In this document: positions 51,040 through 64,000 of the stretch, one piece after another | Position numbering within the stretch: position 1 is the stretch's first letter | Layout of the letters: each line of letters starts with the position of its first letter | Assembly (NCBI RefSeq): GCF_003003035.1 | Contig: NZ_PVTS01000010.1 | Location: 62,001-126,000 of the forward strand | Direction: 5' to 3' | DNA length: 64,000 nucleotides | Origin: Marinilabilia salmonicolor | GTDB lineage: Bacteria > Bacteroidota > Bacteroidia > Bacteroidales > Marinilabiliaceae | Notes under the pieces: model-generated | What the model saw: only the letters and a program-made list of their open reading frames with translations | What the model was told of the DNA's origin: nothing | The model's database searches: none | Made by a program: the position numbers and the translations under genes

Positions 51040-52692
51040 TCATCTCCCAAAGCCAATACTCCGTCTTTTCTCCCCCAATTTTTCTTCCTCACAAAAACGA
51101 AGGATGGTCTTAAAAACATCAGCTTCCCCATTCACAACACTATGGATTTCCCACTTCCGAACAATGTTATCGATTTCTCCACCGGAAAAGTCAAATTGAG
51201 AAGCAAGTTTCCTGGCATTTTCTTTAGTTAAAGACTGCAATTTCGATTGCCAGATTCGGGCTCTATTGGTAACATCCGGTTTTCTGAATTGGACTTTAAA
51301 CAGGAAACGACGCTCAAATGCAGCATCCAGGTTGTCCTGAAGATTGGTGGTAGCAATCAGAATGCCTTTGAAGTTTTCCAGCTCCTCAAGAATGATGTTC
51401 TGAATGGCATTTTCTGTTTTTACCACATTCGAGTGGCTAATGCTCTGACGTTTACTAAATACTGCATCGGCCTCATTAAAAAGCAGAATAGGCAATTGTT
51501 CGCAATCTTCTGTAAAATCAGCATAATCAGAAAACACCCTCTTAATGATTTTTTCACTCTCTCCGTACCACATCGATTTGGTTTTACTGATTTCAACCTT
51601 CATTATGTTACGACCTGTTGAACGGGCCAACTGTTTGGCCATCTCTGTTTTACCGGTTCCGGGTACCCCGTAAAAAAGAGTAGCGATCCCTTCTCCCAAA
51701 CCTTGCTGCTTCAACCTGGTTCTGATTTTTTTCAACTGTTCTTCGTGCAATGATTGTTCTAAAAGACTTAGTTGCCGGTTGGTTTCTTCATCGAAAAACA
51801 ATTTCCGGCATATTATATCATTTGTGCGAATCACATCTCCTCGCCTGGTAGCCCCCATTATGTTCACACCATGCTCTTTTAGCAGCTTCTTGCCTTTGGA
51901 GGACAACATAATTTCGATATCATCAAAAAAATCAGCGCCGTTGGTTTTAACTAATTCCAACTTCATAAGCCTGTTTTTGCCTGAAATGAAACCTCTTCTG
52001 CACTTAATGTTTTCTGACGAGTTACCATGCACATCACGAACCAATCTGTTGAGGTTGCGTGATCCTTCACCGGTTATGGCACTCCAGAATAAAACTAAAA
52101 GGATAAATTGCTCATCCAAAGGCAATCTCAAATCCTGGACATGTCTCAATAATGAAAATTCAAGATTATCTGTTACGAGATCCCGGGCAGCAAACAATAA
52201 ATCTATTTCATCCAGACCATCTTCATACACCAGATCAGCAACGGTGCCCAGCACATCCATAATGTCTTCATACGTTTCTTTCAGCAATACCGGCATGGGT
52301 TTATTCTTTAGCACAGCCTCCAACAATTCACTGTTCAAACGAAACATCGGAACTCTTCTTCCCCGACGAAACCCGACAGTGCTTTTATTTTGTCCGATAA
52401 AATTTCGTTCTTCAAGTTCAGCTATATCGTCCTGAAATTTTAATAACCGCAAAGCACTACAGTCCAGATGTCTAACTATATCATCAAAACCTACTTTCTC
52501 ACCATCGTGCCCCTTATCAAACAATACTGCCAGAAATGCAGCCTGAAAGCGATTCACTCTGAAATAATCGCATAAAACTCCCATCTCTTCACCATAATCG
52601 GAAAAAGTGGGATCCTTTAAACGGCTCTTTCTTACTTTATCGTTTATTTCTTCAAGATAGCCCAGTAACGGATAGTTCGTTTGTAGTTTCAT
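51040..52692 (-). CDS. AAA+ ATPase (ATPase_central/FtsH-like core)
   Basis: A 550-residue protein with a helical N-terminal region (1-320) of unknown fold and a C-terminal AAA+ module: Walker A YGVPGTGKTEMAK, Walker B ILLFNEADAVF with Asn in place of the usual Asp before Glu, sensor 1 ATTN and arginine finger AAFERRF. The LLFNEADA form also occurs in other Bacteroidota AAA proteins, so it is not a defect by itself. The gene is bracketed by the inverted repeats R1 and R2. It has no obvious partner gene; a role as remodelling ATPase in a mobile or defence unit is an inference. Confidence 0.85.
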   Translation of the reverse strand: MKLQTNYPLLGYLEEINDKVRKSRLKDPTFSDYGEEMGVLCDYFRVNRFQAAFLAVLFDKGHDGEKVGFDDIVRHLDCSALRLLKFQDDIAELEERNFIGQNKSTVGFRRGRRVPMFRLNSELLEAVLKNKPMPVLLKETYEDIMDVLGTVADLVYEDGLDEIDLLFAARDLVTDNLEFSLLRHVQDLRLPLDEQFILLVLFWSAITGEGSRNLNRLVRDVHGNSSENIKCRRGFISGKNRLMKLELVKTNGADFFDDIEIMLSSKGKKLLKEHGVNIMGATRRGDVIRTNDIICRKLFFDEETNRQLSLLEQSLHEEQLKKIRTRLKQQGLGEGIATLFYGVPGTGKTEMAKQLARSTGRNIMKVEISKTKSMWYGESEKIIKRVFSDYADFTEDCEQLPILLFNEADAVFSKRQSISHSNVVKTENAIQNIILEELENFKGILIATTNLQDNLDAAFERRFLFKVQFRKPDVTNRARIWQSKLQSLTKENARKLASQFDFSGGEIDNIVRKWEIHSVVNGEADVFKTILRFCEEEKLGEKRRSIGFGR

Positions 52693-54583: not shown

Positions 54584-55453
54584 CTACAAGTCCAGAAATT
54601 TAGATGCCCCGCTATTCTCAATCGTCTCAGCAACCATAGAGGCATCATCTGAACTTATTACGCTAAACAATCTTTCCTTTTTTCTTAAATCATTCCAAAT
54701 CTGATGTTCAAATGACTTCTTTTGTTCAGGTTCATCTGCAATCAGGAAAAATTTATTTTCAAAAGGCTCCTTTTGGTGACCATAGGAAAGATGAACGATT
54801 AAATTCACATAACTGGTGGTAGCTTTATGAATTTTGTCTCTGGAATGCGTAAAATATAGTGACTTAGCACCTACAAAGACTCCGTTCCTGCCCACACAAT
54901 CCATTTCAAAAGGGGTAACAAGAGATGGAGTGAAATTGTGATCAAACTTTTTATGAATATGAACCTTCTCTTTTACCCGTTCAATAAGATTGGTGTTAAT
55001 GCGCTCATTAAAATGTTTCTCTTCTTCCTTTTCCGGATTAATCTCCGTTTCTTCAACCTGATCAACAAACATTCTAAAGAGTTTTTGAAACTTTTCAGCA
55101 TTCACCTGGTCGGTGATAAAATTAGGTGCTGTAAATTTTAAAAGTCCATTGCTGTATCGCGACAAATATTCAAAATACTCAGAACTGAATGAACTTTTCA
55201 AATCAAAAATTTCCGGTTCTGCTTTTGACTTTTTTGCAAGGGTATTTAACTCATCAAGCTTATGGGTGATCTCTTTCTCCAGATAATCTAATACCCTGGA
55301 ATCACTGGTTAAAATCCCCTTTGCAATTCTCTTCTTTCTTTGAGAAAACTTATAACGAAAACCTTTCTGGTCAGACAATATCATCCCTATTACCAAACTA
55401 TCGTCAGACAGGGAATTAGGTGATATCTTTATAAGACTATAAAAAGTTTTCAT
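54584..55453 (-). CDS. DUF3037-like protein partnered with HipA-like kinase
   Basis: A 289-residue protein. The N-terminus (FYSLIKISPN and LVIGMILSDQKGFRYKF) recalls DUF3037 proteins, which in many genomes are encoded next to HipA-family kinases; the rest is longer than usual. Start ATG 55451-55453 overlaps the HipA stop by one base (TAATG), so the pair is translationally coupled. It could be the kinase's antitoxin-like partner or substrate. No DNA-binding helix is evident. Confidence 0.6.
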   Translation of the reverse strand: MKTFYSLIKISPNSLSDDSLVIGMILSDQKGFRYKFSQRKKRIAKGILTSDSRVLDYLEKEITHKLDELNTLAKKSKAEPEIFDLKSSFSSEYFEYLSRYSNGLLKFTAPNFITDQVNAEKFQKLFRMFVDQVEETEINPEKEEEKHFNERINTNLIERVKEKVHIHKKFDHNFTPSLVTPFEMDCVGRNGVFVGAKSLYFTHSRDKIHKATTSYVNLIVHLSYGHQKEPFENKFFLIADEPEQKKSFEHQIWNDLRKKERLFSVISSDDASMVAETIENSGASKFLDL

Positions 55454-56289
55454 TACATTTTACTTAGAATAAGACTATACTCCTCAAATACTTTTTTGTT
55501 ACGTACTTCCGAGAAAAGAAAGGCATGAATATTTTGTTGTTCCTCCGGGGTAAATTCAAGCCCATCAGGAATATAACCACAAATTTCATCAAAATGTTGT
55601 CTGCACTCCTCAATACAAAGATAGAAACTTTCTCTCGCTTTGTCCATCCATATAATATCAGCTTTGATTTTTCGCTTCAACGTCCTGCATGCCTGATGGT
55701 GCAAAATCGATTCATTATAACTAAACATCAACTCTTCAGGCATTAGATAATCATATCCGCCAGATGCTAAAATAAATGCATGATCAATCGCGGTAATGGT
55801 AATTAGTTTTTCTCCATCCGGGCACAATAGCAGGTTGTTATTGCCGGGGTTCCGGTCTTCATTGGCTATCCAGATATCAAATAAAGCCAAACGGAAAAAA
55901 TCCTCCGGATTATTCAACTCCCGTTTAAACTTATCTAATGATATGAAGGCTTCCAGTTCTATTGAATTCTCAATCCATTGAGAACCGAAACATATATTTT
56001 CATACAAAAAAGGCTTGTGCCTTACACTCAACCCCTCGGTTTGAGAAATCAATTCAGGATCTATACTAACAACCGCAACTTCCGGGGTAGGGATATCCCA
56101 TAATCGCAGAAAGTAATACCCTAAAAACTCATTAATCAATGAATTTTTATCATGACTGTTTTTTAATGCCTTAACTACATATTGATTATAATCATCTCCC
56201 AACACTTTCAACGGGGTATGACCATCAGTGGGAATCTCCTTTATTATTGAGATTCCCTCTCTATGCAGCAAGGGGGTTAGTTTTTCCAT
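55453..56289 (-). CDS. HipA-like kinase
   Basis: A 278-residue HipA_2-type kinase. The catalytic region has FDIWIANEDRNPGNNNLLL, matching the D-x-x-x-N kinase catalytic loop, and ITAIDHAFIL, matching the metal-binding D of HipA-like proteins. The N-terminal ATP-binding strands (NQYVVKALKNS) are present. It lacks the HipA N-1 domain and any HipB-like regulator, which fits the single-domain HipA_2 class. The upstream gap of 263 bp to hsdM is AT-rich with no gene. Confidence 0.78.
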   Translation of the reverse strand: MEKLTPLLHREGISIIKEIPTDGHTPLKVLGDDYNQYVVKALKNSHDKNSLINEFLGYYFLRLWDIPTPEVAVVSIDPELISQTEGLSVRHKPFLYENICFGSQWIENSIELEAFISLDKFKRELNNPEDFFRLALFDIWIANEDRNPGNNNLLLCPDGEKLITITAIDHAFILASGGYDYLMPEELMFSYNESILHHQACRTLKRKIKADIIWMDKARESFYLCIEECRQHFDEICGYIPDGLEFTPEEQQNIHAFLFSEVRNKKVFEEYSLILSKM

Positions 56290-56553: not shown

Positions 56554-58998
56554 ATGGCAATCAAAAAATCGGAACTATACAGCTCCCTGTGGGCCAGCTG
56601 CGACGAACTTAGAGGTAGTATGGATGCAAGCCAGTACAAAGATTATGTATTGGTTTTGCTTTTTATGAAATATGTATCCGACAAAGGCGACAAACTCGTG
56701 GATATTCCCGAAGGTGGCAGCTTCTACGATATGGTAAAGCTCAAGGGTCAGCCCGATATTGGTAACCAGATGAACATCATCATCGGAAAACTGGCAGGGG
56801 CAAACAGCCTCAATGGTATCATCACCGTAGCCGATTTTAATGATGACGAAAAACTCGGAAAGGGTAAAGACAAGGTGGACCGGCTTTCTAACCTCATTGA
56901 AATTTTTGAGAATGAATCACTCAATTTCCGAAGTAACCGTGTTGAGAATGACGATCTGCTCGGCGATGCTTATGAATATCTTATGCGCCATTTTGCGACG
57001 GAGAGTGGCAAAAGCAAAGGTCAGTTTTACACGCCTGCCGAAGTCTCTCGTGTTATGGCCAAATTGATTGGTATAGAACAGTCGCAAAGTCCATCGGAAA
57101 CCCTTTATGACATGGCATGCGGATCGGGTTCGCTGCTGCTGAAAGCGGCCGATGAAGCCCCCAACGGCATTACCATTTACGGTCAGGAGATGGACAATGC
57201 CACCCGTGCCCTGGCAGTCATGAATATGTGGTTACACGGACATCCGGATGCTGAAATCCTGCAGGGAAACACCATTGCGGAGCCCTTGTTTCTGGAAAAA
57301 GAAAACAGCGGCCTCAAGAAGTTCGACTATGCAGTGGCCAATCCCCCATTCTCCACTAAGGCATGGAGCAATGGGCTGGATGAAGCCAACGACATTTACG
57401 AACGGTTTGATGGATTTGGTATTCCACCCCAAAAGAACGGCGATTATGCTTTTCTGCTGCATCTGCTCAAGTCTTTAAAAAGCAAAGGAAAAGCGGCCAT
57501 CATTATGCCGCTCGGTGTACTCTTCAGGGGCAACATTGAAAGTGAAATACGCCGCAACATTGTAAAGCGCGGCTACATCAAAGGCATCATCGGATTACCC
57601 GACAACCTTTTCTACGGAACGGGCATTGCTGCTTGTATCATTGTCCTTGACAAAGAAAATGCAGCTCAGCGCAAGGGAATTTTCATGATCAACGCGGCCA
57701 AAGGTTTCATGAAAGACGGCAACAAAAACCGACTGCGCTCGCAGGACATCCACAAAATGGTGGACACTTTTACCAAACAGCTAAAGATTCCCGGCTACAG
57801 CCGGATGGTGCCATTTACCGAAATCGCTGACCCCAAAAATGATTTCAACCTCAATCTGCCCCGCTACATCGACACCCAGGAGGAGGAAGACATTCAGGAT
57901 ATTGATGCCCACCTCAACGGGGGAATTCCTCAACGCGACATTGATGCACTGAGTAGTTTCTGGGAGGTCTATCCCAACATGAAAGAAGACCTCTTTACCC
58001 CGGCCAGTCGGGAGGGTTACTTCGAACTGAAAACGCCAGCCGAAGAGATTCGAAAAATCATTTTCGACCATCCCGATTTCAAAAATTTCTCAGGTAAAAT
58101 GCAGAATATTTTCAATGCCTGGCAGACCCAATCAATAGATAATTTAAGATCACTGAATAAAGAGTGCCACCCCAAAGCAGTCATCAATCATATCTCAGAA
58201 AATATTCTTGATGCTTACAAGGATAAAGGGTTGCACCCGGGACAAAAAGGCCTGCTCGACCGTTACGACATCTATCAACAATTGATGGATTACTGGTCGG
58301 AAACCATGCAGGACGATTTGTACGAAATTGCCGCCGAGGGCTGGGAAGCAGGAAACATACTGACACGGCTTACCCGAAAAACAAAAAGGGGACTTAAAGA
58401 CATCCCCGGCATTGACGGTCTCTCCGGCCGTCTCATTCCCACCGGACTGATGATTGAGGAACGACTGTCGGAACAAAAAACCGCTGTTGACAAGTTGCAA
58501 AACCAACTCGACAGTACTGTGGCAGAAATGGAGAGCATGCGTGAAGAGCATGGCACGGGAGACGGGCCTTTGGCCGATGCCTTGGATGACAAAGGGAAAA
58601 TCACTAAGGCTTCCCTCAATGCCGCTCTTAAGGAGGTTGACAAATCCGACAAAACCCAGACTGCCATCCTGAAGCAATACAAAAAACTGATGGACAAAGA
58701 AGCCACACTAAAGGTTGACATCAAAACCGCTCTTACCGAACTGGAGGAACAACTCATACAGGCCTATCCCCCGCTCACAATAGAGGATATTAAAGAAATA
58801 GTGATTGAGCAAAAGTGGATGGCCGAAATCAACCGTCGCATCAACAATGAAATGGAGGCCATCAGCCACCGCCTTACCACACGCATCAAAACTTTGGCCG
58901 AACGCTACCAAAGCACCCTGCCCCAACTTACCAACAACGTGGAACACCTGAAGGCAAAAGTGGAGGAACACCTGAAAGCCATGAAGTACAACTGGTAA
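56554..58998 (+). CDS. hsdM: Type I restriction-modification methyltransferase subunit (HsdM) with long C-terminal extension
   Basis: An 814-residue N6-adenine methyltransferase. N-terminal HsdM_N helices (ELYSSLWASCDELRGSMDA), SAM motif I DMACGSGS (186-193), catalytic NPPF (263-266), and the FYGTGIAACIIVL segment. The typical HsdM core ends near 500; the remaining ~310 residues form a helical, Lys/Glu-rich extension (coiled coil about 610-810) that in other long HsdM proteins can carry partner contacts. It starts a run hsdM-hsdS with 52 bp between them. Confidence 0.93.
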   Translation: MAIKKSELYSSLWASCDELRGSMDASQYKDYVLVLLFMKYVSDKGDKLVDIPEGGSFYDMVKLKGQPDIGNQMNIIIGKLAGANSLNGIITVADFNDDEKLGKGKDKVDRLSNLIEIFENESLNFRSNRVENDDLLGDAYEYLMRHFATESGKSKGQFYTPAEVSRVMAKLIGIEQSQSPSETLYDMACGSGSLLLKAADEAPNGITIYGQEMDNATRALAVMNMWLHGHPDAEILQGNTIAEPLFLEKENSGLKKFDYAVANPPFSTKAWSNGLDEANDIYERFDGFGIPPQKNGDYAFLLHLLKSLKSKGKAAIIMPLGVLFRGNIESEIRRNIVKRGYIKGIIGLPDNLFYGTGIAACIIVLDKENAAQRKGIFMINAAKGFMKDGNKNRLRSQDIHKMVDTFTKQLKIPGYSRMVPFTEIADPKNDFNLNLPRYIDTQEEEDIQDIDAHLNGGIPQRDIDALSSFWEVYPNMKEDLFTPASREGYFELKTPAEEIRKIIFDHPDFKNFSGKMQNIFNAWQTQSIDNLRSLNKECHPKAVINHISENILDAYKDKGLHPGQKGLLDRYDIYQQLMDYWSETMQDDLYEIAAEGWEAGNILTRLTRKTKRGLKDIPGIDGLSGRLIPTGLMIEERLSEQKTAVDKLQNQLDSTVAEMESMREEHGTGDGPLADALDDKGKITKASLNAALKEVDKSDKTQTAILKQYKKLMDKEATLKVDIKTALTELEEQLIQAYPPLTIEDIKEIVIEQKWMAEINRRINNEMEAISHRLTTRIKTLAERYQSTLPQLTNNVEHLKAKVEEHLKAMKYNW

Positions 58999-60872: not shown

Positions 60873-62222
60873 ATGGCTCAGACAACAAGTGAAAAAAATC
60901 AATTAAATACAGACATAATATCTATAAAAGACTTACTTACCTTAGATGGATTGCAAATTCCAGTTTACCAACGTCCTTACAAATGGAAGATTAAAAATGT
61001 CAATCAATTACTTGATGACATTATCACGCATAAGGACAAATCAGCATACAGAATCGGCACGATTGTTTTTCATAAGGACGAAATGGATATATTGAATATT
61101 GTTGATGGTCAGCAAAGAAGTATTACCATTTTGCTTATTGCACTGGCTTTATTGGAAAATGAAAAAATAAAAAAGATAGCTTCAAAAGAAAAGTATCATC
61201 TTGTAACACCAAACCTATTTTCTAAATCTCCACTCAAGAATTCAATTTCCAAACAAAACATTAAGGAAAATTATGCCGAAATAAAACAAAGGATAAAGGA
61301 ATTTGATTTTGACTCTCTTCGTTTTTTTTATGATAAATGCCAACTCGTTAAAGTAGAGCTTTCAGATGTATCAGAGGCATTTCAGTTTTTTGATTCTCAA
61401 AATGCAAGAGGGAAAGATCTATATCCTCATGATCTGTTAAAGGCCTTTCATTTACGTGAAATGGTAACTACAACAGCAGAACAGGAACGAAATGCTATAA
61501 TTGAAGAATGGGAAAGCTTGGACCAAAACACTTTAGAACGTTTATTTGAAAAATATCTATTCCGTATTAAAAACTGGTCAAAAGGTTATTCTGCGCGCAT
61601 ATTCACAAAAAATCAAGTTGATCTTTTTAAGGGCATTTCACCCGAGATAAAAGAGCCATACCCTTTTGCCTCCATTTATCGTATCAGCAATTATTTTATT
61701 GAAGGTTACAATCAAAACATCAATAGAAAAATTGACCTTAATCATATGAATTTCCCGTTTCAATTGGATCAGGCAATAATTAACGGAAAACGATTTTTTG
61801 AGTTTATTACTCACTATAAAAAAATGATTTCCGAAACAACCAACGGTTTTATTGACAATAACATCATAAAAACATTGAATAATTATCCAGGAAAATTCAG
61901 AAAAGGAGATCGATATGTCAGAGCATTATTTGACTGTTGCCTTATTTTTTATATAGACAAATTTGGTTTTACTGAAATGGAAAGAGCAATTGAAAAAATT
62001 TTCATTTGGACTTATAAATTACGTGTAGAACATTACAGCATACAACTGGCTACCATCGATAACCATGCTTTAAATGAACCTTCCTTATTTAAAATAATTA
62101 AAGAAGCCACTCATCCCAAAGAAGTATTCTCTACTTATGTAACTGGCCCTTACAGAAAAATACCTAACCCAAAAACAACAGACATTGTGAACCTTTTTAA
62201 TGAAATGGGATATGAACAATAG
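60873..62222 (+). CDS. DUF262 protein without HNH domain
   Basis: A 449-residue protein. The DUF262 (ParB/Srx-like nucleotide-binding) domain has IPVYQRPYKWKIKNVNQLLD and the motif VDGQQRSITI at about residues 70-85. It keeps its helical C-terminal region but has no DUF1524-like His-x-x-P nuclease motif. Its last codons overlap the start of the next DUF262 gene by 11 bp, so the two are translated together. It may act as the NTP-binding partner. Confidence 0.85.
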   Translation: MAQTTSEKNQLNTDIISIKDLLTLDGLQIPVYQRPYKWKIKNVNQLLDDIITHKDKSAYRIGTIVFHKDEMDILNIVDGQQRSITILLIALALLENEKIKKIASKEKYHLVTPNLFSKSPLKNSISKQNIKENYAEIKQRIKEFDFDSLRFFYDKCQLVKVELSDVSEAFQFFDSQNARGKDLYPHDLLKAFHLREMVTTTAEQERNAIIEEWESLDQNTLERLFEKYLFRIKNWSKGYSARIFTKNQVDLFKGISPEIKEPYPFASIYRISNYFIEGYNQNINRKIDLNHMNFPFQLDQAIINGKRFFEFITHYKKMISETTNGFIDNNIIKTLNNYPGKFRKGDRYVRALFDCCLIFYIDKFGFTEMERAIEKIFIWTYKLRVEHYSIQLATIDNHALNEPSLFKIIKEATHPKEVFSTYVTGPYRKIPNPKTTDIVNLFNEMGYEQ

Positions 62223-64000
62223 TAACGATATAAAAGAATTAACAATAAAGGAGCTTTTTAGTACAGGTAAATATGTCATTCCCCGTTACCAAAGAAACTA
62301 TGCATGGCAGGAGAAAGAAATCACTCAGCTTATTCAAGATGTGTATGATTATGCCTTAAAAGATAAAACTAATTATTATATTGGAACATTGGTTGTTTAT
62401 GAAAGAAGCCACAACGGTCACACCTATTACGAAACTATTGATGGACAACAAAGACTCACTACTCTTAACCTTATAATTAGTGCCATCAAACGAAACTTCG
62501 CCAATCACGACAAAATATATAATTTCCCCTTTGAACTAAATTTGGCATTTGATAGCAGAAAGAAATCTACATCCACCCTCCAGGCTATTGCAGAAATTAA
62601 CGGCAGCAAGGAACCCTTTTTTCGTGATGAAATCAACTATGAATCAAATATTAAGCAAGGCTATTGGGATACCGTTAAATTCTTAAAAAATGAATTAAAA
62701 GAAGACAATACCATCATTAATTTCTTTCGCTTTCTTACTGAAAATGTTAAAATTTTCAGGGTAAAAGTCCCTCACGACACAGATTTAAACCATTATTTCG
62801 AAATAATGAATAACCGTGGTGAGCAATTGGAAAAGCATGAAATTTTAAAAGCAAAAATGCTGGAAACTCTAAAAAATGAGGATTCCTTAAAATATTCATT
62901 CAATCTGATATGGGAAGCTTGCTCTGATATGGATCGATATGTACAATACGGATTTTCTACATCAAGAGGAAATCAGAAAAAGGATGAACGAAAAATTATA
63001 TTCGGAGTAGATTGGAACAATTTACAATTCAGTACTCTCGATGAAATTGCGAATTCCATTATTGAATCGAATGAAACTAATACATTTGATTACAATGAGG
63101 ATTCATTAACAATTGAAGAGATAACAAAACAACCTAGAAATAACCAAAATCTGGAATCAACGAAAAGCAACGATGCTGAACGATTCAGCTCTGTGGTTTC
63201 TTTCCCCAATTTCTTACTTCACGTATTAAGGATTGTTACAAAAGAAAATATTCCACTTGATGACAAACGTCTTTTAGACACCTTTAACCATTACCTTGAA
63301 AAAGGCCCATGTTTCGTAAAAGAATTTGGCTTTGCTTTATTAAAAACAAGGTTCTTATTTGATAAATACATAATCAAAAGGGAATTTTTAAATGACAACG
63401 AACAATGGAGTCTAAAACAATTGAAGTTAGAAAAAGACAAGCCAAGATATGTTAATTCTTTTGGAGAAGACGAAAATGGTCAAAATAAAGAAATCATTAT
63501 GCTTTTATCAATGTTCCATGTATCTTCACCTACTCAAATCTACAAACATTGGTTAAATGCAGCACTTTACCATGTTGTCTTCTATGGGGCTCAAAGTTTT
63601 TTATATTTCCTTCATGATTTGAGTAAGGCTTTCTTTTTTGACCGCTTTTTGGCAAAAGAACCTCTCGACTATTATGATATCATCTACCAAAACCAAGGAA
63701 TCCCAAAACAAAACTCTAAAAATGTCAATTGGGATATTCTGAATAAAGGGGTTCAAGTTGAAAACTTTATTTTTAATTACCTTGATTTTGAGCTCTGGAA
63801 AAGAAAAGCTGAAGGTTATGAAAAATTTGAATTTGCATTTAGGAGCAGTGTAGAACATTATTACCCTCAAAATCCGGTTGCTAATATTGAAAAACTAAAA
63901 AAAGAAATATGTGATAATTTTGGGAATCTATGTTTGCTAAGTAGCAGTAAAAATTCAAGACTAACCAATCATACACCCGAAGCAAAAAAGGATTATTACA
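62212..64000 (+). CDS. DUF262/DUF1524 protein, cut by window end
   Basis: Open from ATG 62212-62214 to the window edge (over 596 codons). DUF262 domain with IPRYQRNYAWQEKEITQLI and IDGQQRLTTLNLIISAI, then a long helical middle, and near the edge SSVEHYYPQNP followed by NFGNLCLLSSSKNSRLTNHT, the usual layout of the DUF1524 His-Asn-His-like nuclease end of GmrSD-type enzymes. With the upstream single-domain DUF262 gene it forms an overlapping pair next to a type I RM locus. Confidence 0.87.
   Translation, partial: MNNSNDIKELTIKELFSTGKYVIPRYQRNYAWQEKEITQLIQDVYDYALKDKTNYYIGTLVVYERSHNGHTYYETIDGQQRLTTLNLIISAIKRNFANHDKIYNFPFELNLAFDSRKKSTSTLQAIAEINGSKEPFFRDEINYESNIKQGYWDTVKFLKNELKEDNTIINFFRFLTENVKIFRVKVPHDTDLNHYFEIMNNRGEQLEKHEILKAKMLETLKNEDSLKYSFNLIWEACSDMDRYVQYGFSTSRGNQKKDERKIIFGVDWNNLQFSTLDEIANSIIESNETNTFDYNEDSLTIEEITKQPRNNQNLESTKSNDAERFSSVVSFPNFLLHVLRIVTKENIPLDDKRLLDTFNHYLEKGPCFVKEFGFALLKTRFLFDKYIIKREFLNDNEQWSLKQLKLEKDKPRYVNSFGEDENGQNKEIIMLLSMFHVSSPTQIYKHWLNAALYHVVFYGAQSFLYFLHDLSKAFFFDRFLAKEPLDYYDIIYQNQGIPKQNSKNVNWDILNKGVQVENFIFNYLDFELWKRKAEGYEKFEFAFRSSVEHYYPQNPVANIEKLKKEICDNFGNLCLLSSSKNSRLTNHTPEAKKDYY

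Follow-up and report, generated by a model that had tools for sequence, protein, structure and literature searches.

Genes A and B, two overlapping DUF262 genes at the end of the window (the whole stretch of 64,000 nucleotides of Marinilabilia salmonicolor DNA that was analysed), very probably encode a type IV restriction system made up of two proteins, which is of the TgvAB type, belongs to the GmrSD/SspE superfamily and lies as a cassette in the hsdS-hsdR interval of a complete type I operon (probability about 0.88). Underlying this assignment are the genes themselves, their domains, intact motifs and folds, and the conserved pairing and joint evolution of the two proteins, each of which was observed directly. 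A sequence-only reading had proposed a two-subunit modification-dependent restriction system within a type I RM island, and our analysis favours such a function for the pair, TgvAB having been shown to be a system of this kind (PMC11411939). The novelty implied by that reading does not hold, since the two-protein arrangement in the type I slot is already published as TgvAB (PMC11411939) and the family is widespread. What is new here is modest: a pair from a mostly Bacteroidota branch, its capture by this type I lineage, apparently as a separate event, and an additional gene of the GxxExxY family. The recently described two-protein type IV system is thus extended by a member from this branch.

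Organization of the operon and domains of A and B

The genes were arranged in the order hsdM, hsdS, GxxExxY, A, B, hsdR and a gene for a 255-aa protein, all on the plus strand. The features within the window were as follows.

56554..58998, plus strand: hsdM, type I RM methyltransferase, 814 aa
59051..60253, plus strand: hsdS, type I RM specificity subunit, 400 aa
60359..60778, plus strand: GxxExxY (PDDEXK_3) gene, 139 aa, between hsdS and A
60873..62222, plus strand: gene A, TgvA-like, 449 aa, DUF262/GmrSD_N and helical DUF7834, without a nuclease domain
62200..64000, plus strand: gene B, TgvB-like, DUF262/GmrSD_N, middle region and DUF1524/GmrSD_C, with the stop 119 bp beyond the window

The pair was located downstream of hsdM-hsdS, as had been claimed from the sequence alone, and the GxxExxY gene was absent from the gene list of that claim. 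When B was completed from the genome contig, it encoded 639 aa with both DUF262 and DUF1524, and hsdR started 2 bp after it. B had two candidate starts, ATG 62212 and ATG 62200, which gave overlaps with A of 11 and 23 bp, respectively, confirming the overlap that had been put at 11 bp.

In a Pfam search, A matched PF03235 (GmrSD_N) at residues 19-193 (3e-30) and PF25202 (DUF7834) at residues 206-424 (1.1e-74), and gave no match to DUF1524; the DUF1524 H motif was absent from all A proteins of the 85-locus set described below. B matched PF03235 (3.4e-34, 119.2 bits, cut-off 33.2) and PF07510, GmrSD_C (32.1 bits, cut-off 23; the E-value of 1.2e-07 is for the part inside the window). These domains confirmed that one DUF262 protein has the nuclease end and the other does not. 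A and B were the sole DUF262 matches in the genome (E up to 0.001), and their identity of 28% was confined to the DUF262 part. The motifs YQRPY (YQR), IVDGQQR and FDSQN were all intact in A, and YQRP, DGQQR and FxxxN were invariant or nearly so in a 50-row alignment covering several phyla. The corresponding motifs of B (YQR, IDGQQR and FEIMN) were likewise intact and invariant or nearly so in a 44-row alignment, in which H553, N576 and N585 of the nuclease end were invariant. No NCBIfam model matched A or B, and the HEC-06, Orf5 and SspE models of PADLOC-DB (2023) were matched only partially.

The genome contained eight members of the GxxExxY family, the others being on contigs C2, C3 and C4, and comparison of the 85-locus set showed no such gene at any locus but this one. 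Because no other locus has one and the genome holds eight family members, the gene between hsdS and A is most simply regarded as a roaming passenger, and it could also have a role in the system.

Relation to TgvAB and other DUF262 systems

TgvAB of V. cholerae VPI-2 (VC1767-VC1766) was described by Vizzarro and colleagues, the two tgv genes being inside a five-gene type I operon, hsdM-hsdS-tgvA-tgvB-hsdR (VC1769-1765) (PMC11411939). TgvA and TgvB each have DUF262, and DUF1524 is confined to TgvB; restriction of T-even phages whose cytosines are modified requires the two proteins together, and protection is abolished by mutation of either DGQQR motif or of H571 or N602 of TgvB and is independent of HsdR nuclease activity (PMC11411939). 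Among 41,142 genomes, the pair occurred 1,341 times and the five-gene operon 79 times, with Shewanella, Acinetobacter and Pseudoalteromonas named as genera with the five-gene operon, most homologues outside type I operons, and SspE and BrxU reported as structural matches (PMC11411939). TgvAB was also among the DefenseFinder calls of a 2026 paper (PMC13268207).

Judged against the published description of the V. cholerae proteins, the window pair has each sequence-level feature of TgvAB. The genes are adjacent and co-directional, the first with DUF262 only and the second with DUF262 and DUF1524; they follow hsdS and precede hsdR in a type I operon, in the order A-B; both proteins have the QR, DGQQR and FxxxN motifs; and the H...N...N His-Me finger is in B only. 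In the Vibrio tapetis relative (L070), the catalytic histidine was H577 and the last asparagine, by our count, N609, near 571 and 602 of TgvB. Unlike TgvAB, the window locus has the GxxExxY gene between hsdS and A, and its A falls, in the tree of A proteins, within a branch that is mostly Bacteroidota.

The AlphaFold models of A and B had pLDDT values of 90.2 and 84.5, respectively, and, as for TgvAB, SspE and BrxU were among the best structural matches of both. The best fold match of A was SspE (Z 15.5, rmsd 17.2, 274 residues aligned), with DndI (Z 13.2, rmsd 6.5, 360 residues) and BrxU (Z 7.2, rmsd 16.1, 305 residues) following, and B matched SspE (Z 18.4, rmsd 21.4, 478 residues), DndI (Z 17.1, rmsd 7.3, 452 residues) and BrxU (Z 7.9, rmsd 17.9, 354 residues). 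The high rmsd to SspE and BrxU suggests common domains in different relative positions, and, judged by its model, A resembles a protein of the SspE/BrxU type that lacks the nuclease end.

B shares the domain order, DUF262 then DUF1524, with the type IV enzymes GmrSD/Eco94GmrSD and BrxU, and it was above the Pfam cut-offs for both domains of the GmrSD type IV family; those enzymes consist of one protein, or have S and D as separate proteins, whereas the window locus has a further DUF262 protein. GrwAB of the WASA V. cholerae lineage is also a two-protein DUF262 system with one DUF1524 partner, but DUF1524 is on GrwA and GrwB has a long multi-domain C-terminus (PMC12409362), whereas the nuclease-less partner in the window is short. 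SspE and DndI, the best fold matches of both proteins, are single proteins tied to phosphorothioate systems, whereas the window has two proteins in a genome where a search for DndC gave no match. RloF of Campylobacter jejuni type I loci is likewise encoded by a DUF262 gene between hsdS and hsdR, but it is described as a single R-linked gene, and the window has two DUF262 genes.

From these comparisons we infer activity at the window locus, an A-B complex and the kind of modification that is sensed. A and B would act together on incoming DNA, both DUF262 domains binding and hydrolysing NTP at the DGQQR pocket and sensing modified bases, and the His-Me (H-N-N) nuclease end of B would then cut. 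The type I enzyme would attack unmodified foreign DNA, and the pair would attack DNA that had been base-modified to escape type I restriction. We know of no modified-DNA phages of this host.

There is some chance, though we think it unlikely, that the pair senses a modification other than sugar-modified hydroxymethylcytosine, such as phosphorothioate, like SspE and DndI, or 7-deazaguanine, like GrwAB, a different two-protein DUF262 system that protects against 7-deazaguanine phages. The ranking of phosphorothioate-linked SspE and DndI, rather than BrxU, as the best fold matches would fit such a target, whereas TgvAB, which has the most similar architecture among characterised systems, targets modified cytosines (PMC11411939). 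Dnd-type sulphur self-marking was not found, as a search for DndC in the host genome gave no match, and this speaks against a Dnd-style phosphorothioate dependence.

Rather less probable is a role of A in regulating B, or as an anti-inhibitor that shields B, for example from inhibitors such as IPI* that phages inject, instead of as a co-sensor or structural subunit. The authors of the TgvAB study, unable to explain why TgvB alone is insufficient, raised this role themselves, but their V. cholerae TgvA DGQQR mutants lost all activity (PMC11411939). A also keeps every DUF262 motif and varies in close step with B in several phyla, which argues against this role. The alignments and models obtained here supply residues for probing why TgvB needs TgvA.

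Conservation and evolution of the pair

Conservation of the pair in other genomes was tested with a set of 85 loci, consisting of the window locus, four from a sample of the phylum, and the best 80 relatives (one genome per species). Among 296 genomes of the phylum, all four others matching most of A had B directly beside it. In the full set, B was directly downstream of A on the same strand in all 83 loci whose contig continued past A (82 by reading frame and L050 by tblastn), an arrangement far beyond chance. Of the 75 pairs in which an overlap could be measured, 70 had one, most often of 8 or 11 bp, and the distances of A and B were correlated with r = 0.94 (69 loci). When only loci of the window's type I lineage were compared, the correlation was 0.99 for A and B, 0.48 for A and hsdR, and 0.92 for hsdM and hsdR. 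Across these 85 loci from several phyla, the two proteins evolve as one unit, apparently mobile between type I operons, and this supports the view of type I loci as platforms for enzymes against phages that evade type I restriction by base modification.

Loci of Shewanella, Acinetobacter and Pseudoalteromonas had the five-gene operon, with full-length homologues of approximately 42-45% identity to A and 40-44% to B. A had no match in four genomes of the same genus, which indicated that this lineage has the cassette as an accessory element. A scan of 50,697 phage records gave one weak partial match. An A homologue was present on 897 plasmid records, of which 854 were from Klebsiella, and the listed Klebsiella rows had approximately 40% identity. 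A second tgvB-like copy, broken by stop codons, was seen at G033:C1:5077976-5079530, the genome concerned having an intact pair as well.

The arrangement with hsdM and hsdS upstream and hsdR downstream was found at 22 of the 85 loci, including the window, whereas 44 had no recognisable hsd relative nearby and the remainder were partial or differently arranged. Because about half (44/85) had no recognisable hsd gene close by, type I embedding is not a defining property of the pair. In the tree of A, in which L012, L013 and L014 had very long branches, the window protein was placed in the mostly Bacteroidota branch, adjoining pairs of other type I lineages or of none, and separately from the pairs of Proteobacteria that share the window's type I lineage. 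On this tree the pairs were apparently captured separately at the same slot, the direction of each event being left open. A more far-reaching version, which we regard as improbable, is that the pair of the mostly Bacteroidota branch senses a modification other than sugar-modified hydroxymethylcytosine, and that the hsdS-hsdR slot of this type I lineage is a recurrent landing site where TgvAB-type pairs of different branches were captured separately, here along with a nuclease-like GxxExxY protein that contributes to the function.

It is very unlikely that A and B function as components of the type I enzyme and not as a separate system. Although A and B form one co-directional run with hsdM, hsdS and hsdR, with short gaps or none, the loci without a nearby hsd gene and the far closer tracking of A with B than with hsdR argue for a separate system, as does the finding that HsdR nuclease activity is dispensable for protection in V. 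cholerae (PMC11411939). A decayed duplicate of B that had lost its nuclease end, which the shared DUF262 domain and its 28% identity might suggest for A, was ruled out, since A keeps its NTP-pocket motifs nearly invariant across phyla and has a conserved C-terminal family of its own (DUF7834), and since B adjoins it in 83 of 83 loci. Of the two outcomes that had been named as refuting the sequence-only reading, a lack of conservation of the pair and decay of its first gene, neither was observed.

Neighbouring genes

The 255-aa protein encoded after hsdR had no NCBIfam match, and from its sequence it was read as metal-dependent hydrolase-like. On contig C4, a stretch of approximately 13 kb contained five of the eight GxxExxY members. 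As for a possible BREX neighbour, the sole PglZ match in the genome was a single 520-aa frame on another contig. Approximately 5 kb past the window edge, a gene on the minus strand (L003:14067-17048) encoded a protein of 993 aa that combines a helicase with a TOTE conflict-system primase domain, which is a further defence or conflict element near the type I operon. On the other side, a HipA-like kinase gene (PF20613) was followed, with a 1-bp overlap, by a gene for a 289-aa protein with no Pfam match (window positions 54584-56289, minus strand), and positions 51040-52692 (minus strand) encoded a 550-aa AAA ATPase that matched the PADLOC IetA models (4.6e-26).
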